NCBI GenBank assembly: GCA_003222675.1 | Contig: QHWT01000015.1 | Location: 4,734 to 43,668 of the forward strand | Origin: Acidobacteriota bacterium | GTDB lineage: Bacteria; Acidobacteriota; Vicinamibacteria; Vicinamibacterales; 2-12-FULL-66-21 | DNA length: 38,935 bases | Direction: 5' to 3' | Shown here: piece by piece, positions 9,357 through 36,891 of the stretch | How positions within the stretch are numbered: the stretch's first letter is position 1 | Layout: each line of letters starts with the position of its first letter | Position numbers and translations under genes: made by a program | Notes under the pieces: model-generated | The model's input: only the letters and a program-made list of their open reading frames with translations | Database searches by the model: none | Told to the model about the DNA's origin: nothing

Positions 9357-10595
9357 TCACGCCCGAGTCATGGCTTCGTAGCTTCGCTGCAGGAAATCGC
9401 GCTCCGTCGCGTTGTGAGTACTCGCGATTGCCGCTTCGTACGCCACTGCTGCCTCGGCAGTGCGGCCTGAGCGGCGAAGGAATTCGGCGCGGATCGCATG
9501 AAACAGGTAATAGCGATCGAGATCGAGTCGGTCGACAATTCGGAGCGCCGCGGCGGGTCCCTCGACCTCGGCCACCGCAACGGCGCGATTCAACGCGACG
9601 AGCGGGCCTGGCATGAACTCGAGCAGCTGGTCGTAGAGCTGAAGGATCTGTTGCCAGTCCGTGGCGCTGGCGGTCGGCGCGTCGCTGTGGGCGGCATTGA
9701 TCGCCGCCTGGATTTGGTACGGGCCCGGCTGGTTGCGCCGAAGGCATTGCCGCACGATCGCCTGCCCCTCGGCGATGAGGGCGCGATTCCAGGCGCCGCG
9801 ATTCTGATCGGCCAGCAGGATCAGATGGCCATCCGGACTCACGCGCGCGGCGCGACGCGATTCAACGAGCAGCATGAGCGCCAGCAGCCCCATGACCTCA
9901 GGGTCGCGAGGCATGAGATTCGCCAGAACGCGTCCCAGGCGGACCGCTTCCGCGCACAGGTCCTCCCGAACGAGCCGATCGCCCGCAGACGCTGTGTATC
10001 CCTCGTTGAAGATCAGATAGATGACTGCCAGGACGGCCCGGAGACGGTTCGGCAGTTCGGTTTCATCCGGCACGCGGTACGGAATCCCCGCGTCCCGGAT
10101 CTTCGCCCTGGCTCTGACCAGCCGTTGGGCCATCGTCGTTTCTGAGGTGAGAAACGCGCGCGCGATCTCGGCGGTCGTGAGTCCTCCGAGAAGCCGGAGC
10201 GTCAGGGCCACCTGGACGCCGGTGGCGAGCGCGGGATGGCAGCAAGTGAAGATCAGGCGCAGCCGATCGTCGCGCATCGCATCCTCCTCGGGCGGTTCAT
10301 CCGCCGCGTGCAGCAGCACCGCCTGAGCGTGTCGATCCTGACGCGACGCTTCGCGGCGGAGCCGGTCAATCGCGCGATTGCGGGCGGTCGTGATAATCCA
10401 TCCGACCGGGCTCGGGGGCACACCGCTCGATGGCCACCGTTCGATCGCCGCGGTGAACGCGTCCTGGACCGCCTCCTCGGCGACGTCGATGTCGCCGAAG
10501 ACACGGACCAGCACCGCCACCGCGCGACCGTACTCTGCGCGGAACATGCGTTCGATCTCGGCGATCGAAATCTTCGAGTCATCTGCGGTGCGCAT
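9357..10595 (-). CDS. ECF42-type RNA polymerase sigma factor
   Basis: A 412-residue extracytoplasmic-function sigma factor with a large C-terminal extension, as in group ECF42. Region 2 covers about residues 10-85 ([19 protein letters not shown], then [18 protein letters not shown]). Region 4 covers about 120-165 ([30 protein letters not shown]). The rest is an all-helical, TPR-like domain with [20 protein letters not shown] and [18 protein letters not shown]. The start at 10595 (MRTADD) is chosen because the in-frame extension to 10790 only translates the repeat region. There is no anti-sigma gene nearby. The DGPF/YCII gene just upstream on the same strand is the usual ECF42 partner; the pair is thought to act together in signalling. 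Confidence 0.93.
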
Positions 10596-10599
10596 TGTC

Positions 10600-10862
10600 G
10601 ACTTCCGATTGCAGACTGACGATTCACGGATTGACGATTGACAAGTGCCGATTTGCACTGACGATTGTCGATTGCGATTAGCGATTAGCGATACAGATTG
10701 ACGATTGGTGATTTTCGAATGCTCGACTGCCGATTGGAGCACACGAGTGCTGTGCTCCTGAGCGCCAATCTTCAATCGGCAATTCGTCAATCGCCAATCG
10801 ACAATCCAAATCGGCAGTCTGCAATCGGCAATTCGTCAATCTGCAATCCGCAGTCATCAATT
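10600..10862. repeat. Long imperfect inverted repeat of GATTG/CAATC words
   Basis: The left half is built from words like GATTGACGATT, the right half from the complementary CAATCGGCAATTCGTCAATC. That 20-mer occurs twice exactly (10773-10792 and 10822-10841, 49 bp apart). The two halves meet at a perfect 8-bp stem, GGAGCACA 10736-10743 and TGTGCTCC 10751-10758. The whole block can fold as one hairpin of about 250 bases. It fills the gap between the DGPF gene and its sigma factor. Confidence 0.85.
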
Positions 10863-10880
10863 TTCAGCTCGCAGCTTCCG

Positions 10881-11228
10881 CTAGTGTTCCTCTCGGAACG
10901 GCCGCACTTCGATCGGAAGCGTGGTCGCGCGGGCGAGCTTGCGCCCCCATTCGAGCGCGGCGTCGAGGTCGGGCGCCTTGATGATCGAGAACCCGCCGAT
11001 GTGCTCTTTGCCCTCCGTAAACGGGCCGTCGGTCGTCAGCACGTCGCCGCCTTGGACCCGGACGACGGTGGCCGTGCTCGCGGGGTGCAGCCCACCGGCG
11101 AAGACCCACGCGCCTGCGGCCTTCAGCTGCTGGCGGACGGCATTGACGTCGCGCATCACGTTGTCCAGCACCTCGGGCGGTGGAGGGTCGCCGTCGGGTT
11201 GATAAATGCTGAGCAGGTACTGCTTCAT
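10881..11228 (-). CDS. YCII/DGPF-domain protein
   Basis: A 115-residue protein of the YCII-related family. The defining motif TTDGPFTEGKEHIGGF is present around residues 65-80, preceded by MKQYLLSIYQPDGD and followed by IKAPDLDAALEWGRKLA and a strand ending IEVRPFRE. A ribosome site AGAGGA lies about 8 bases before the ATG. Proteins of this kind are commonly encoded beside ECF42 sigma factors, as here; they are proposed to modulate the sigma factor, but the biochemical activity is not established. A 6-bp GC hairpin (GCCGGC 11253-11258 / 11264-11269) lies in the leader. Confidence 0.92.
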   Translation of the reverse strand: MKQYLLSIYQPDGDPPPPEVLDNVMRDVNAVRQQLKAAGAWVFAGGLHPASTATVVRVQGGDVLTTDGPFTEGKEHIGGFSIIKAPDLDAALEWGRKLARATTLPIEVRPFREEH

Positions 11229-11337
11229 TGGTCGATCCTCTTTGATGTCGCCGCCGGCGTCATGCCGGCTTCTACTCTCTATACGAACAGCCTCCCTCTC
11301 GATCGACAGGGACGGCCGTGCCAGAAGAGTCGCCGCC

Positions 11338-11346
11338 TGTTAGAAT
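11338..11346 (+). promoter_or_regulatory. Extended -10 promoter of the deacetylase-like gene
   Basis: TGTTAGAAT: TG at 11338-11339, then TAGAAT at 11341-11346, 27 bases before the GTG start. No recognisable -35 box lies 17 bp upstream, which is common when the -10 is extended. A GGGAGA ribosome site follows at 11362-11367. Confidence 0.5.
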
Positions 11347-11373
11347 TTCGCCCCACTGCCTGGGAGAACGACT

Positions 11374-12867
11374 GTGAAGAAGACAGCGCTCTGGCTGCTG
11401 CTGGTTCTCGCGCTTTCAGCCAATCTGCGATCATTCGTCAGCGCGCCTCCGCCAGTCTACGTGACGCTCTGGTTCGATACGGAAGATTACATTCTGCCGG
11501 AGGACGACGATGCGACGAAGCGGCTGGCAGAGATGCTGTCGCGGCGTGGCGTTCGCGCGACGTTCAAGATCGTCGGTGAGAAGGCTCGAGTATTGGAGCG
11601 ACGCGGCCGAACGGACGTGATCGCCGCGCTGAAGCGGCACGACATCGGCTATCACTCGAACACGCACAGCCAGCAGCCGACAGTTGCGGTATATCTGCAG
11701 AACGCCGGCTGGGAAGACGGCCGGGCCGAGTTCAAGCGACGTGAGGAGCAGGGGGTCAAAGACATTCAACGGATATTCGGCGTCACGCCCGTCGCCTACG
11801 GGCAGCCCGGGAGTGCGTGGGCCGCGCAGACCTATCCCGCGCTTCGCGACATGGGCATCAAGGTGTATCTCGACGAAGCTGACCACGTTGGCATCGACGA
11901 CCAGCCGTTCTACTACGGCGGCATGCTCAACATCTTCAAAATGCGCTCGAACCTGGTGCGGATGGCGTTGACGGGAGGCACAAGTCTCACAGAAGGTGAA
12001 ACGGCATTCAACAAGGTACACGCTTCGTTGCGCGCGCGCGGCGGGGGAACGATCAGCATCTACTACCATCCCAACGAATGGGTCCAGACGGAGTTCTGGG
12101 ATGCCGTCAACTTTCGTCGCGGAGCGAACCCGCCGCCGAGTGAGTGGAAAAAGCCGGGAGTCCGCCCCGCTGCGGAGACGGAGAAGGCCTTCGCTGATTT
12201 CGAGCAGTTCGTTGAGTTCATCAAGTCGCAGGGCGTGCGCTTCGTGACGGCGACCGAGCTCGCGTCGCTGTATGCCGATCGGGCGTTGGACCGCAGCTTC
12301 GGCAAGGACGATCTTCTCCATCTCGCGCGCGCCGCGCAGAAGGAGATCACGTTCGAGAAATTCGATGGCTATGCACTCTCACCTGCCGACACGTTCGCGC
12401 TGCTGACGGAGGCCGCGGCGGCGCGCCTCGATCGAAACGCGCTGCCTGCCTCGACGAGACTGACGCTGCTCGATGGACCCGCACGCGCGTTCAGTCCGTC
12501 GATGGGAACCGTGCATTCGTCAACCTTCCCCTGGCCCGCGTTCGCGAGCGCGATCCGCGACACGGCCGCCTATTGCCGCACGCACCGCCGCATCCCGGAC
12601 GAAATCTGGATTGGCGCCGAGAGCATCTCGCCGGCCGATTACCTCGCGACGCTGGGCGCCGCGTTCGAGCGCCTCGGAACATCCGGTCAGATGCCCCCCG
12701 ACGTGGAACGGCGGACCGGACACTACACGGCAGACCAGTACGTCGCGGAAGACTCTCCCGGGTTGTGGGACTGGATCATTTTTCCAGAAGGATTCCACGC
12801 GCCCCGGCTGATGGAGCTCGCGCGGCTGCAGGCGTGGACGCTGAAAGTGGCCCTCCTTCAGCCCTGA
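11374..12867 (+). CDS. Exported polysaccharide-deacetylase-like protein with C-terminal repeat domain
   Basis: 497 residues from a GTG start. Residues 1-24 form a signal peptide. Residues 28-300 look like a NodB/CE4 deacetylase fold: motif 1 is TLWFDTED (31-38, D35 as likely base), motif 2 is H94-x3-H98 (HSNTH), and [10 protein letters not shown] (228-236) stands where a later metal/active-site loop is expected. CE4 enzymes remove N- or O-acetyl groups from cell-wall or extracellular glycans using a divalent metal. The C-terminal part (about 320-435) contains [20 protein letters not shown] followed by [21 protein letters not shown], which resembles a pseudomurein-binding-type repeat; this is a pattern match by eye. 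The deacetylase assignment is fairly firm, the substrate open. Confidence 0.75.
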
Positions 12868-13624: not shown

Positions 13625-14028
13625 TCTGCACTCGCAGGAGCCATGCGCGAGCTGCCGGTGCTCGCGCAACGAAGCACGTCTCGCTCGCTCCTCTCGTTCT
13701 TGTGACTCCCGAACTGCGCCTGCCACGCCGAAGGCGGGCGACTCGTAACGGCACACTGATGTCCCGAATCGGAACCTTCGGGCCTATCGTCTTCGATTCC
13801 AGCCTGTTGCACCGATCGCGCTGACGCGCGGTGTTCCGTTCCTGCCCAGCCGTCCATCCGCACGCGACTGACGAATCTGAAAGCACGGCAAGCAAGCGAC
13901 GTAAGTCGGCCTGAATCCACCGACGCTCGTCCTCTCTCCTACTCCCCGGGACCTGGCCTCACGCTTGCTCATCTGTGGGCTTTCCGCCCGACACAACTGA
14001 CGGAATCGTTCCCGAAACGGTCGCACCG
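13625..14028. other. 404-bp intergenic region, no gene seen
   Basis: No convincing coding frame on either strand; open minus-strand frames here have no family features. One small perfect hairpin is present (CCCGAA 13763-13768, TTCGGG 13777-13782, 8-base loop), not followed by a T-run. No clear promoter for the subtilase gene was found. Confidence 0.4.
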
Positions 14029-15906
14029 ATGAAGATGATGCTCCGCAAAGCCATAGGATTCTCGACCGCGCTCGCCATCGCGTTCCTTGCTACCGGCCAC
14101 GTGCAGGGCGTGGCACGGCGCGCGCCGGGCGCAAGCCACCGAGAGAAACTCGACACTCACCTTCGCGCGGCGCTCGACGCCGGCAGCGGCGACTCCCAGC
14201 GCGTCATCATCCGCGTGCGGCCGGGCGAGCGCGCGGCGCTGCGCAGGATGCTGTCGGAGCACGGCGATCGGATCGTGGCCGAACACGAGTCGATTGACGC
14301 CATCACGACCGTGGTTCATGCCGAGGATCTCGAGACGCTCGCCGGCCAGCAACAGGTCGTCTCCGTTTCGAGCGATGCGATCGTTCGCGCCAAGCTGCTC
14401 GGCGGCCTGCTCGGAGGTTTGGTCAAGGTCGTGGTCAGCGTGGTCAACATCATCCTGCCAAATAACGCGGATACATCCGGCCCGGCGGTCCCGCCGCAGG
14501 TACTGCGCGACACGCTCGGCTTGGGCTCCACGTGGACGGGCAGCGGCATCGGCGTGGCGGTGATCGATTCCGGCCTCGAACAGTCGTCCGAGTTCGACAC
14601 TCGGCTGACCGCCTTCTTCGACTTCACGAAAGGTGATATTCGCACGACCGCGTACGACGATTACGGCCACGGCACGCACATCGCCGGCACGATCGGCGGT
14701 TCAGGCGCGTTGTCGTATAACCGCGACTATCGCGGCCTGGCGCCCAAGGTGAAGTTCACCATTTTCAAGGTGCTCGATAAGAACGGCGCCGGATGGACCA
14801 GCGACGTGATCCGCGCGATCGACTTTGCGGTTGCGAATCGCGCGGCGCTGGGCATCGACATCATCAACCTGTCGCTCGGCCATCCTATTTACGAACCTGC
14901 GGCCACCGACCCGCTGGTGCAGGCGGTCGAGCGCGCCTCGCGCGCGGGAGTGATAGTCGTCGCCGCCGCAGGCAACTACGGAAAGAATCCAAAGACGGGA
15001 GAGGTCGGGTACGCGGGCATCACGTCGCCCGGCAATGCCCCTTCGGCGATTACCGCGGGTGCGCTTCGAATCGAAGACACGGTGTCGCGCAGCGACGACT
15101 CGATCCCCGACTACAGTTCGCGCGGGCCGACGTGGTACGACGGCTTCGCGAAACCGGACTTCGTCGCGCCGGGGCACAACATCATCGCGGTCGCCGCCAA
15201 ACAAGGCACGCTCTATAAGACATATCCGCAGCTGAAGGCGGACAACAGCAACTACATGCGCCTGAGCGGCACGAGCATGGCTACCGCGGTCACGACCGGG
15301 GTGATCGCGCAGATGCTCGAAGCGAACCGCTACACCAACAACTATCCGTACCATCCTTCGCTGACCCCGAACGCCGTCAAGGCGATGCTGCAGTACTCCG
15401 CCTTTCCCGTCCGCAATTCGGCTGGCGTGGAATACAACACGCTCGAGGAGGGAGCCGGCGCCATCAACGGCAAGGGCGCAATCAGCCTCGCCAAGGCTGC
15501 GGACACATCGGCACCAACCGGCACACATTGGCTCACCACCACGCTGTCGCCGCGGACGACGATTGGCGGCGACACGATCACGTGGAAGCAGGTCGTGGTC
15601 TGGGGCTCGGTCGTCGTGTGGGGCAGCACCGTCGATCTCAACCAGCAGGCCTGGGGCACGGTGGTGGTGTGGGGCAGCGACAACACCACGTTTGGCAACG
15701 TCGTCGTCTGGGGCAGCGACGTCGTGTGGACGGATCCGCAGTCCTGGGCGAACGTCGTGGTCTGGGGCAGCGACTCCATCGGCACCACCATGGGTGACGT
15801 TGTTGTCTGGGGCAGCACCGGAGGACTCAGTCCCGAGACGACAGCCTGGGGTGATCTGCAGGGCACACAGACGTCGGGCATGATCTCGGCGACGTCGATC
15901 AGGTGA
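14029..15906 (+). CDS. Subtilisin-like serine protease (S8) with VVVWGS-repeat tail
   Basis: 625 residues from ATG 14029; a GTG at 13975 is in frame but the signal peptide (MKMMLRKAIGFSTALAIAFLATG) starts here. Residues 36-125 form an I9-type propeptide (QRVIIRVRPGERAALRRML...VVSVSSD). The catalytic domain has D180 (VAVIDSG), H214 (GHGTHIAGT), the oxyanion Asn316 (AAAGN) and S416 (SGTSMAT), so it should be active. After about residue 495 comes a tail with six VVVWGS copies and no further domain. It is an exported or surface protease. There is no obvious operon partner; the next gene is convergent with a 2-bp gap. Confidence 0.93.
   Translation: MKMMLRKAIGFSTALAIAFLATGHVQGVARRAPGASHREKLDTHLRAALDAGSGDSQRVIIRVRPGERAALRRMLSEHGDRIVAEHESIDAITTVVHAEDLETLAGQQQVVSVSSDAIVRAKLLGGLLGGLVKVVVSVVNIILPNNADTSGPAVPPQVLRDTLGLGSTWTGSGIGVAVIDSGLEQSSEFDTRLTAFFDFTKGDIRTTAYDDYGHGTHIAGTIGGSGALSYNRDYRGLAPKVKFTIFKVLDKNGAGWTSDVIRAIDFAVANRAALGIDIINLSLGHPIYEPAATDPLVQAVERASRAGVIVVAAAGNYGKNPKTGEVGYAGITSPGNAPSAITAGALRIEDTVSRSDDSIPDYSSRGPTWYDGFAKPDFVAPGHNIIAVAAKQGTLYKTYPQLKADNSNYMRLSGTSMATAVTTGVIAQMLEANRYTNNYPYHPSLTPNAVKAMLQYSAFPVRNSAGVEYNTLEEGAGAINGKGAISLAKAADTSAPTGTHWLTTTLSPRTTIGGDTITWKQVVVWGSVVVWGSTVDLNQQAWGTVVVWGSDNTTFGNVVVWGSDVVWTDPQSWANVVVWGSDSIGTTMGDVVVWGSTGGLSPETTAWGDLQGTQTSGMISATSIR
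15592..15816 (+). repeat. Coding repeat VVVWGS in the subtilase tail
   Basis: Six copies of VVVWGS at protein residues 522-527, 528-533, 545-550, 558-563, 576-581 and 591-596, plus a partial VVW at 565-567. They are spaced by 0 to 12 polar residues (for example DNTTFGN and DSIGTTMGD). The DNA units differ by silent changes (GTCGTCGTGTGG, GTGGTGGTGTGG, GTTGTTGTCTGG), so the protein pattern is under selection rather than freshly duplicated. Confidence 0.9.
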
Positions 15907-20185: not shown

Positions 20186-20192
20186 TTGGGAG

Positions 20193-20302
20193 CTTTTCAA
20201 TCGAACAATCGAAGGACGATCGAAGGAATCGAAGGAGCGTTCCTAAAATTTTGAGATATCGTTCGACTCTTCGGGCTTTCCTTCGACCCTTCGATTGAAA
20301 AG
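20193..20302. terminator. Long inverted repeat between convergent genes, likely bidirectional terminator
   Basis: A perfect 13-bp arm CTTTTCAATCGAA (20193-20205) pairs with TTCGATTGAAAAG (20290-20302). The inner parts repeat ATCGAAGG-type words on the left and CCTTCGA-type words on the right, around an AT-rich centre (AAAATTTT near 20246). It exactly fills the gap between the receptor stop and the GYD stop, so it suits termination in both directions. Confidence 0.7.
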
Positions 20303-20304
20303 AC

Positions 20305-20634
20305 TTACACGGCCGCAGCTCCGGCGCCGCGATATTTGACTGACGTCTTGCACGCGGCATCGATCTCTTCGACCGTGATGAGCGGTGTCGTCTTGACTCT
20401 TACGGTTCCCGACGCATTCGCCGCCAGACTCAACGCCAATCCACTGACGGCGTTGGGCACGTCGGCGATCAGCAGCACATCGTCGTCGCCGTATGCGAAG
20501 TACATGGCTTCGAGCGTTCCGCCCAGACCTTTAATCGCTTTCTCGAGCACCGCCTTGCGGCCGGATCCCCCTTCCGTGAGCAGGCCCCGGGTTCCCTCTG
20601 AGGTGTACGAGGCCGTAATGAGAAACTTCGCCAT
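20305..20634 (-). CDS. GYD-domain protein
   Basis: A 109-residue cytoplasmic protein of the GYD family (dimeric alpha-beta barrel-like fold). The N-terminus MAKFLITASYTSEGTRGLL, the central IKGLGGTLEAMYFAYGDDDVLLIADVP (the family's GYDY-like region with D-D-V) and the end VRVKTTPLITVEEIDAA are characteristic. AAGGAGG lies about 6 bases upstream. The molecular role is unknown; some relatives are described as small stress or monooxygenase-like proteins. It is last in a minus-strand series behind the MFS permease and transaldolase, separated from the permease by a hairpin repeat. Confidence 0.88.
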   Translation of the reverse strand: MAKFLITASYTSEGTRGLLTEGGSGRKAVLEKAIKGLGGTLEAMYFAYGDDDVLLIADVPNAVSGLALSLAANASGTVRVKTTPLITVEEIDAACKTSVKYRGAGAAAV

Positions 20635-20655
20635 ATCAGCCTCCTTCGGGAAAAT

Positions 20656-20751
20656 GGCTCAAGGCTCATGACTCATGGCTCAGGCTGGCTCATGGCTCGG
20701 TGCCCTAAGCCGTCTTAAGACTTGAGCCGCGTCAGCCCTGAGCCTTGAGCC
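20656..20751. repeat. Inverted repeat of GGCTCATG/TGAGCC words
   Basis: GGCTCAAGGCTCA (20656-20668) is perfectly complementary to TGAGCCTTGAGCC (20739-20751). More GGCTCATG words lie on the left and CTGAGCC words on the right, with the palindrome GTCTTAAGAC near the centre (20712-20721). It sits between the MFS stop (20756) and the GYD start. The same 20-base word string recurs with one mismatch at 37429-37448. Confidence 0.85.
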
Positions 20752-20755
20752 GTTC

Positions 20756-23309: not shown

Positions 23310-23357
23310 GCCGGGTCTTCAGACCCGGCTTGCAGAGCGGCGGGTCTAAAGACCCGC
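23310..23357. repeat. Two GTCT-NN-AGAC hairpins (dispersed family)
   Basis: GCCGGGTCT-TC-AGACCCGGC (23310-23329) and GCGGGTCT-AA-AGACCCGC (23340-23357). Each is followed by a similar tail (TGCAGAGCGG and TACAGAGCGG), so the pair is a tandem duplication of about 30 bp. It lies between the divergent transaldolase and dehydrogenase genes. Other family copies are at 24878-24895, 35259-35278 and 37468-37490. Confidence 0.88.
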
Positions 23358-23386
23358 CCTACAGAGCGGAAAACGCGAGGCCAGCC

Positions 23387-28167: not shown

Positions 28168-28313
28168 GCCAGTAACAGTTGCCGGTTGCCAGTAACCAGT
28201 TGCCGGTAACCGTTTGCCGGTTGCCGGTTGGTACCTGGCTACTGGCGACCGCTACTGGCGACTGGGCGATCGGTTACTGGCTACTGGTTACTGACTACCT
28301 GTTACGAACCACG
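28168..28313. terminator. Inverted repeat of GTTGCCGG/CTACTGG words between convergent genes
   Basis: The left half repeats GTTGCCGG and CAGTAACC words; the right half repeats CTACTGG and GGTTACTG. CAGTAACCAG (28190-28199) pairs exactly with CTGGTTACTG (28284-28293). The block lies between the stops of two convergent genes, so termination in both directions is the simplest role. Confidence 0.65.
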
Positions 28314-30981: not shown

Positions 30982-31001
30982 GGGTGGATTATCGCGGAAT
31001 C

Positions 31002-31058
31002 GGGGTGCGGGGTGCGGGGCGCGGGGTGCGCGGGTGCGGGGTGCGGGGTGCGGGGTGC
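31002..31058 (+). repeat. GGGGTGC heptad array with G-quadruplex potential
   Basis: Eight units, mostly GGGGTGC (31002, 31009, 31023, 31038, 31045, 31052), with variants GGGGCGC (31016) and GCGGGTGC (31030). Four or more G4 runs separated by 3-base loops fit the classic quadruplex pattern on the plus strand. The array lies in the 119-bp gap between two divergent HAD genes, where their promoters should be. Confidence 0.88.
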
Positions 31059-31100
31059 GGTATGGTCTCCTGAATTCTTGATCTCCTGTGAGGTACCCCA

Positions 31101-35258: not shown

Positions 35259-35340
35259 GCCGGGTCTAAAGACCCGGCCTACGGTGTCGGATCTCGGACC
35301 TCAAACCTCGGACCTCGGACCTCGAACCGCGGACCTCGAC
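35259..35340. repeat. GTCT-NN-AGAC hairpin plus GGACCTC heptads inside the efflux operon
   Basis: GCCGGGTCT-AA-AGACCCGGC (35259-35278) is a perfect 9-bp hairpin, followed by about seven GGACCTC-type heptads to the ATG at 35341. The heptads are open in frame with the MFS gene and would encode repeats like SDLGPQT/SDLGPRT if a GTG at 35284 were used. They separate the fusion-protein and pump genes of one operon by 129 bp. Confidence 0.85.
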
Positions 35341-36891
35341 ATGAGCGAGCATAAACACGTCAATCCCTGGATCGTCGCTATTGCCGTCATGTTCGCGACG
35401 TTCATGGAGGTGCTCGACACGACAGTGGTCAACGTGTCGCTGCCCCACATCGCCGGCAATCTCTCCGCAACGATCGACGAGTCCACGTGGGTCCTGACGT
35501 CGTACCTGGTGGCGAACGCGATCGTTCTGCCGATGACGGGATGGCTGGCGCGCAATTTCGGCAGAAAGCGCCTGCTGATGGCGTCGGTGATCGGCTTCAC
35601 GGCTTCGTCGTTCCTGTGTGGCCTCGCGCCGACTCTCGCATCGCTCGTGGCGTTCCGGTTGATCCAGGGCGCTACCGGCGGCGCGATGCAGCCGCTGTCG
35701 CAGGCCGTGCTGCTCGAGGCGTTCCCGCCGCACGAACGCGGCAAGGCCATGGGGTTCTGGGGCCTCGGCATCGTCGTCGCGCCGATTCTTGGACCGGTGC
35801 TCGGCGGCTGGCTGACCGACACGTATAGCTGGCGGTGGGTGTTCTACATCAATCTGCCGGTCGGCATCGTGTCGCTCGTCATGACGAAGCTGTACGTGTT
35901 CGATCCACCGTATCTGCGCCAGGAGTCGTCGAAGATCGATTACTGGGGCATCGGGCTGCTGACGCTGTGGGTCGGCTGCCTGCAGATCGCGCTGGATCTC
36001 GGGCAGCAGCGCGACTGGTTCTCATCGCGATTCATCACCGCCCTCGTCGCGATTTTCGCCATCTCGCTCGTGTTGTTCATCATTCGCGAGCTGATGTCGT
36101 CGGAGCCCGTCATCGATCTTCACGTCTTCCGCAACCGGACCTATGCGACCGGCGTGTTCATGATGACGATTGTCGGGTTCGTGTTGTACGGCAGCCTCGT
36201 GCTGCTGCCGCTCATGCTGCAGACGCTGCTTGGATATCCGTCCCTCCAGGCTGGCATCGCGATGGCGCCGCGCGGGATGGGGTCGCTGATCGGGATGCCG
36301 CTCGTCGGCACATTGATCGGCAAGTTCGACGCGCGCAAGCTGGTCGCGATCGGGTTCGTTGCCGGTGGACTGACGCTCATCTGGCTCGGTCAACTGAACC
36401 TGAACGCCGGCTACTGGGACATCTTCTGGCCGCAGTTCTGCCAGGGGCTCGGCCTTGCCGCCCTGTTCGTGCCGCTGACGACGATCAGCATGGACGCGAT
36501 CCCGCGCGAGCAGATGGGCAACGCGACGAGCCTCTTCAACCTCATGCGCAACGTCGGTGGCAGCGTGGGGATCGCGATCACCGGCACGATGCTGTCGCGG
36601 ACGACGCAGGCCTACGTCAACATTCTCGGAACCAACGTCGACGCCTATTCCTCCACGACGACGAGCGCGTTCGAAGCGGCGCGCTCGGGGTTCCTCGCGG
36701 CGGGAGCCGACATGGTTACCGCGACCCAGCGCGCTTACGCGTCGCTCTTCGGGATGGTGCAGCAGCAGGCCTCGATGGTGTCGTTCGTGCTGCTGTTCCG
36801 CCTGCTCGGGGGAATCTTCCTCGTCCTGGTACCGCTGATCCTGGTGATGCGGCGTCCGCGCGCGGGGCGCGGGCCTGCCGCGGCGCACTGA
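35341..36891 (+). CDS. MFS drug:proton antiporter, DHA2 (EmrB/QacA) family
   Basis: 516 residues, about 14 membrane spans. IVAIAVMFATFMEVLDTTVVNVSLPHIAGNL is the motif D1 region of DHA2 pumps, WLARNFGRKRLLM is motif A, RLIQGATGGAMQPLSQAVL motif B and FWGLGIVVAPILGPVLGGWLTDTYSWRWVFYINLPVG motif C of antiporters. The start at ATG 35341 (MSEHKHVNPW) is chosen because upstream codons translate a heptad repeat. It uses the proton gradient to expel hydrophobic compounds, with the adjoining fusion protein and TolC channel. The 3' end is overlapped by the glycosylase frame on the other strand. Confidence 0.94.
   Translation: MSEHKHVNPWIVAIAVMFATFMEVLDTTVVNVSLPHIAGNLSATIDESTWVLTSYLVANAIVLPMTGWLARNFGRKRLLMASVIGFTASSFLCGLAPTLASLVAFRLIQGATGGAMQPLSQAVLLEAFPPHERGKAMGFWGLGIVVAPILGPVLGGWLTDTYSWRWVFYINLPVGIVSLVMTKLYVFDPPYLRQESSKIDYWGIGLLTLWVGCLQIALDLGQQRDWFSSRFITALVAIFAISLVLFIIRELMSSEPVIDLHVFRNRTYATGVFMMTIVGFVLYGSLVLLPLMLQTLLGYPSLQAGIAMAPRGMGSLIGMPLVGTLIGKFDARKLVAIGFVAGGLTLIWLGQLNLNAGYWDIFWPQFCQGLGLAALFVPLTTISMDAIPREQMGNATSLFNLMRNVGGSVGIAITGTMLSRTTQAYVNILGTNVDAYSSTTTSAFEAARSGFLAAGADMVTATQRAYASLFGMVQQQASMVSFVLLFRLLGGIFLVLVPLILVMRRPRAGRGPAAAH

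Follow-up and report, generated by a model that had tools for sequence, protein, structure and literature searches.

The stretch of DNA analysed here (the window: 38,935 nucleotides of a contig from an Acidobacteriota bacterium) carries a pair of genes on the reverse strand, one for a YCII/DGPF-type protein of 115 aa (10881-11228) and one for an ECF42-type sigma factor of 412 aa (9357-10595). Both were identified with Pfam, which places sigma-70 regions 2 and 4 (Sigma70_r2, Sigma70_r4_2) and DUF6596 in the latter, the ECF42 assignment being putative. YCII proteins are noted as conserved neighbours of ECF42 in the available text of a review (PMC8999054). The nearest relatives found for the sigma factor are mostly actinobacterial (L009-L050; the best, at 76%, from Streptomyces), and because of this horizontal transfer of the gene is suggested. 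Further along, the reading frame at 13975-15906, with a repeated VVVWGS in its C-terminal part, is presumably subtilase-like, judging by motifs.

The gap between the two genes is occupied by a hairpin of heptamer words, GATTGNN on the left and NNCAATC on the right. It had been described as built of GATTG and CAATC words with an exact 20-bp direct repeat and a perfect 8-bp apex stem, and this description holds: the left arm (10600-10739) contains GATTG eight times and CAATC not at all, and the right arm (10756-10862) contains CAATC eight times and no GATTG. One copy of the direct repeat, CAATCGGCAATTCGTCAATC, spans 10773-10792 and the other 10822-10841, both on the forward strand, while the apex (10736-10758) is a perfect stem of GGAGCACA (10736-10743) and TGTGCTCC (10751-10758) around a 7-nt loop. 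Tandem Repeats Finder reports a period of 7 in both arms, the tandem period that characterises intergenic heptamer simple-sequence repeats. The comparison with shuffled controls proposed in the preliminary description gave an energy well below them: -117.3 kcal/mol for the plus strand of 10596-10880, against -82.8 +/- 5.1 for the shuffles (z = -6.7; reached by 0 of 200). For the minus, transcribed strand, the gap gave -123.4 against -87.9 +/- 5.2 (z = -6.8; the lowest among 150 shuffles was -97.9), with 86 of 102 pairs joining the left arm to the right.

The hairpin is thus real, but its extent, originally put at 10600-10862, is corrected by the end alignment described below to about 10593-10868 (~275 bp, delimited by the end alignment, the fold and homologous copies), the right border being uncertain by several bp. 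From the same alignment, terminal inverted repeats can be placed at 10593-10650 (forward) and 10816-10868 (reverse), the reverse complement of the second aligning with the first. The CAT at the tip of the left one is, as read from the sequence, the reverse complement of the sigma ATG. This copy contains no gene of its own, only read-through frames.

The claim that the hairpin separates genes normally forming one unit is supported by the wider distribution of the pair. Of 101 sigma loci, 71 have an upstream YCII gene in the same orientation, and in most of these pairs the estimated gap is near zero: estimates from protein alignments range from -48 to 162 bp with a median of -7, and 69 of the 71 are 84 bp or less. 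With the element at 10593-10868, the 12 bp remaining before the YCII stop codon (10869-10880) would fit this short-gap norm, and are presumed to be the old spacer. It was also confirmed that the sigma frame reads into the gap, being open through most of it to a TTG at 10790. It would then encode 477 aa instead of the 412 aa that begin with the ATG at 10595, which supports the warning that gene callers could be misled. Caution is generally advisable, as such gaps can both split operons and mislead gene callers.

The preliminary description further proposed that the hairpin is an attenuator or RNA-processing site setting the YCII:sigma ratio. The strong fold of the transcribed strand and the position between both genes are in keeping with a purpose-built RNA element, as is the predicted pairing of most of the sigma ribosome site, an SD-like GGAAG read from the sequence just inside the element on the minus strand (10606-10602). 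Against this, no intrinsic-terminator pattern (a GC stem followed by a T-run) occurs in 10500-11400, and no Rfam family exceeds its cut-off in 10300-11300. Inspection of the same gap in other genomes, suggested along with the proposal, upheld the near contact of the genes in the 71 pairs and yielded no array in the two longest gaps (98 and 162 bp), the only ones inspected. Hairpins of the same kind also occupy many unrelated gaps, and the relatives of this one are dispersed copies with common ends. As the family is dispersed across the genome, the gap more likely contains a repeat element than a switch specific to the pair, and an RNA element evolved for these two genes is very improbable. An incidental effect on the protein ratio is possible, on the basis of the predicted fold: in the transcript, a long stem formed by the element would lie between the reading frames, and the ribosome site of the sigma gene may be masked by it, in which case sigma output may fall as a side effect. 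Both the overlap of the tip with the ATG and the internal GGAAG may have arrived with the element. A CRISPR-like or structured RNA family was separately considered for the gap and rejected, the sole Rfam match scoring 16.8 bits (E = 0.33), below its cut-off of 36.

Arrays of period 7 form a class in the sampled genome. The sample covers 786 kb of 7.16 Mb, comprising the contig of the window (C14), three contigs with matches to the gap (C37, C61 and C20) and one chosen for its sigma matches (C22); genes were called in it with an in-house script checked against the window only. At lag 7, 36 segments were detected, as against 0-7 at lags 4-30 (multiples of 7 excluded) and none at the same threshold in one Markov shuffle. 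A looser threshold gave 45 segments, against 3 in one shuffle, and after merging 46 arrays, a few of which may be due to chance. Many of these consist of two inverted arms and are intergenic, and they use many words, among them GATTGNN, GATCCCT, GGTTCTC, GGTTCAC, CAGTTGC, CAGCTGC, GGCTCAG, GGCTTCA and GGGGTGC. Less than 30% of the sequence is coding in 35 of the 46, which are found in 17 tandem, 12 convergent and 6 divergent gaps; the background of gene pairs with gaps of at least 60 bp is 195 tandem, 76 convergent and 106 divergent.

Within the window, the same class is represented by a hairpin of GGCTCAT words (20653-20752) and another of GTTGCCG and TACTGGC words (28168-28305), the latter missing from the same gap in a genome of the same genus. 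One-armed arrays, found like both hairpins with Tandem Repeats Finder, lie at 30991-31072 (GGGGTGC) and, just before the ATG at 35341, at 35282-35342 (CTCGGAC); the in-house gene caller set this last array inside a reading frame. Two other repeats were observed in passing: a gap hairpin of ATCGAAG-like words with periods of 8 and 9 (20190-20315; Tandem Repeats Finder), and a REP-like palindrome, GGGTCTAAAGACCC, at 23312-23369 and 35262-35275 as well as in other gaps of the genome.

The positioning of arrays relative to genes bears on whether they are general hairpins that end transcription or protect 3' ends, retained for a role at gene ends. In 18 of 41 cases the 3' end of a neighbouring gene is no more than 10 nt from the edge of an array, compared with 4 of 29 for 5' ends; many arrays fill convergent gaps from stop to stop, and at C22:317339 the word hairpin of the source genome corresponds, in the related genome, to a GC hairpin next to a run of A. 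This preference may, however, simply reflect tolerance of insertions, the array in tandem pairs is nearer the 3' end in just 8 of 17, and arrays are found between genes of all orientations. The element in the ECF42/YCII gap itself has no T-tract and splits an operon. Such a role is very improbable as the general explanation.

The excess at lag 7 extends to family genomes G001 (12 segments in 120 kb), G002 (4 in 49 kb) and G011 (4 in 129 kb), with little or none in G008 and G009 (2 in 80 kb each). Across 19 genomes of the phylum (314 kb) there were 17 segments at lag 7, from 6 of the 19, with no more than 4 at any lag other than a multiple of 7. In 474 kb around 80 ECF42 loci of other bacteria, lag 7 gave 4 segments, fewer than the 7 each at lags 12 and 18. 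The pattern (GATTGNN)x3 is present in 33 of 149 phylum genomes, including the source, a count to be read with the abundance of the reversed control word in some genomes (250+253 in G062). G062 matches the GTTAGNN triple word about 500 times, which represents another lexicon.

Searching with the gap itself by Blast revealed copies at unlinked sites, both in the source genome and in other genera. At E = 1e-8, at least 9 of 80 genomes of the order match, including the source, with at least 19 matches in G002, 13 in G001, 8 in G182, 7 in the source and 6 in G009; these counts are lower bounds, and refer to pieces rather than elements. Because common words by themselves yield matches, the units were permuted as a control. 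For pairs of GATTG arrays from the source genome, the real score was reached by 0 of 200 permutations in 7 of 10 pairs, and by 4, 7 and 11 of 200 in the remaining three. Permutation of fixed 7-nt blocks was dropped, as units of 6 and 8 nt break the register and homology is overstated. Neither arm of the gap element is clearly an ordered copy of the other, the order of their units being weak (real score reached by 12 of 200 permutations, and by 21 and 97 of 500). In an earlier, milder test of the two arms against other arrays, the best match was reached by 9 and 28 of 200 permutations, and the sum of the best 20 by 1 of 200 for either arm. A test with 29-mers told real from control order only when at least 25 of the 29 positions matched (22 hits against 0-16), and even there one cyclic rotation did as well (23); with a limit of 23 there was no separation (58 hits against 28-75).

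The ends of these copies are ordered at unlinked loci and in different genera. Left ends and reverse-complemented right ends share the consensus ATTGCCGATTGGCGAYTGCAGAYTGCCGATTCACGGATTG over approximately 45 nt in four genomes from three genera, namely the source and G011 (one genus), G002 and G001; of the 20 ends chosen for this alignment all but one aligned, and a second alignment used 14 of the 20. At the apex, ATTGGAGCRCACGA is common to the element in the gap (10736-10758) and a copy on C61. The 14-nt pattern ATTGGAGC[AG]CACGA, picked post hoc from the alignment, occurs at 2 sites in about 2.0 Mb, both within GATTG hairpins. As this set includes L186-L205, chosen for their GATTG copies, counts in it, those of the 29-mer test included, are not densities.

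These ends bear on the proposal that such arrays grow locally, polymerase slippage in 7-nt steps lengthening a short sequence at a gene end and template switching at a quasi-palindrome producing the two arms, and do not move at all. Many loci do have their own words, the 7-nt period is sharply favoured (36 segments against 0-7), and slippage has been suggested for heptamers in the available portion of PMC4692102. Outside the GATTG family, ordered homology is weaker and mixed: the real score was reached by 3, 30 and 6 of 200 permutations for GGTTC, by 12, 3, 0, 54, 6 and 33 for CCAGT and by 19 for CCAGC, as well as by 1 of 200 for GGCTTC. In the GATCC class, by contrast, ordered homology is found in 4 of 6 pairs (0 of 200; the other two 22 and 9), and local growth does not readily account for this or for the ordered ends and common apex of GATTG copies across unlinked loci and genera.

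The level of variation between related genomes was studied using G011, of the same genus, with DNA identity of 73-87% in syntenic blocks. Both flanks align to G011 for 11 of the 46 arrays, and a comparable array is absent from the orthologous position in all 11: ten counterparts are gaps with a lag-7 score of 6 or less and one lies within an alignment. Gap lengths in the source and G011 are, for example, 132 and 17 bp, 397 and 17 bp, and 167 and 8 bp. The score alone does not distinguish every case, as the source array C14:47176, detected by lag 14 only, has the same lag-7 score (6.0) as one empty gap in G011. By eye, the G011 gap opposite C14:46344 contains a few GGTTC words. In the reverse comparison, from G011 to the sample of the source genome, none of the 9 arrays listed could be aligned at both flanks. 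A search of one contig showed a G011 GATTG element of 231 bp facing 206 bp of unrelated sequence in the source genome. One orthologous gap (L249:1485-1762 and L327:3225-3339) appears by eye to have a GGCTCAG hairpin in G011 and TTCAATG in the source. Junctions, also judged by eye, include one TGAG/TGAG case and one without target-site duplication, with no consistent duplication. As the ECF42/YCII gene pair was not found in a syntenic position in G011 by the searches made, the element in the gap has no orthologous empty site.

Whole hairpins whose positions are represented by 1-17 bp in the sister species likewise argue against growth in place. In its favour, the G011 gap at C37:128601 retains GGTTC-like letters beside the source's GGTTC array. 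Local growth is retained as the leading alternative, possible but distinctly the less probable account.

The preferred reading, to which a probability of roughly 0.6 is assigned, is that the gap holds one dispersed, non-autonomous, MITE-like hairpin with heptamer arms, inserted into a formerly tight operon and reshaped by slippage. Its arms would be terminal inverted repeats of degenerate 7-nt units, with five fixed and two variable letters. We infer that the element was inserted after the YCII stop codon and before the start of the sigma gene, with some 12 bp of the old spacer remaining and its tip at the sigma ATG, and that copies spread through an activity acting in trans. Replication slippage would then add, lose and mix units, such that the 7-nt period is kept as the arms become blurred, and insertions would survive where no gene is broken, hence the intergenic location of the elements. 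A broader version, in which an activity of this lineage writes or copies whole heptamer hairpins into gene gaps, with a lexicon of many words of five fixed and two variable letters and related arrays across the phylum, is speculative and rather unlikely; were it true, it would represent new small mobile or self-generating DNA with satellite arms. An odd gap is turned into a testable genome-wide question, that of how bacteria acquire whole heptamer hairpins between genes, using many words per genome and with rapid turnover.

The search for a mover covered Y1 transposases, which were found in 10 of 12 family genomes and in neither G002 nor G004. None of 21 Y1 loci showed the GATTG ends, motif scores there being 16-27 of 94, compared with a median of 21 and a maximum of 28 in a baseline of 20 stretches of the source genome. 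Given these loci, and the absence of a Y1 match from GATTG-rich G002, the Y1 transposase was rejected as the mover. One of the 21 loci (L320) holds a GGCTCGT array. At L311, L318, L309 and L317, Y1 genes are framed by inverted repeats with GGGGWSAS-like ends, as for TIRYTs.

Bacterial MITEs are short, non-coding elements with terminal inverted repeats and many dispersed copies, varying in presence between relatives. The heptamer hairpins resemble them in having terminal inverted repeats common to copies (all but one of the 20 chosen ends aligning), in their many dispersed copies without coding capacity and in their presence or absence between relatives. They differ in that their ends consist of 7-nt tandem units, and the MITE-like label refers to their build: the search for a parent transposon covered the Y1 loci, and the junctions gave one TGAG/TGAG case and one without a duplication.

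Dispersed palindromic intergenic families are also formed by the REP/RAYT and TIR/TIRYT systems, which, in the available text of PMC3733652, have GTAG/CGTC tags, or TIRs (some of them GGGGWSAS) beside a Y1 gene, TIR families occurring in several organisms including the acidobacterium Koribacter. In contrast to these, the hairpin repeats were not seen beside a RAYT or TIRYT gene, on the evidence of the 21 Y1 loci and of G002.

TAACTGA direct repeats, described in the accessible part of PMC4679880 from Beggiatoaceae, Cyanobacteria and Bacteroidetes, are likewise intergenic heptamers, for which a role in translation was suggested. In the Beggiatoaceae genome studied there they have 2-6 copies, mostly upstream of starts, with one inverted case and no particular predicted structure, longer arrays occurring elsewhere; the elements described here are instead long two-armed hairpins of many words.

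A close likeness is to the GGGAATC and GGGGA(C/T)T heptamers of Xanthomonas and Nostoc, which are tandem 7-nt units, mostly intergenic and often no more than 50 bp from a start or stop codon, and which form 70 and 75 inverted pairs in two Xanthomonas genomes, according to the part of PMC4692102 available. Intergenic heptamer repeats and their inverted pairs are therefore already published. The repeats of that report are of one word type (a trait of the published cases rather than a formal definition), capable of forming G-quadruplexes, and 83% of them retain their gene context from one species to another. In the genome studied here there are many words, and rather than being kept in position all 11 comparable arrays are missing from the genome of the same genus. 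Heptamer hairpins with many words, fast turnover and ordered ends were not found in the repeat literature searched, mostly outside subscription journals. What is new here is thus the number of words per genome, the ordered ends and the fast turnover, a combination that joins the literature on intergenic heptamer repeats with that on small palindromic mobile elements.
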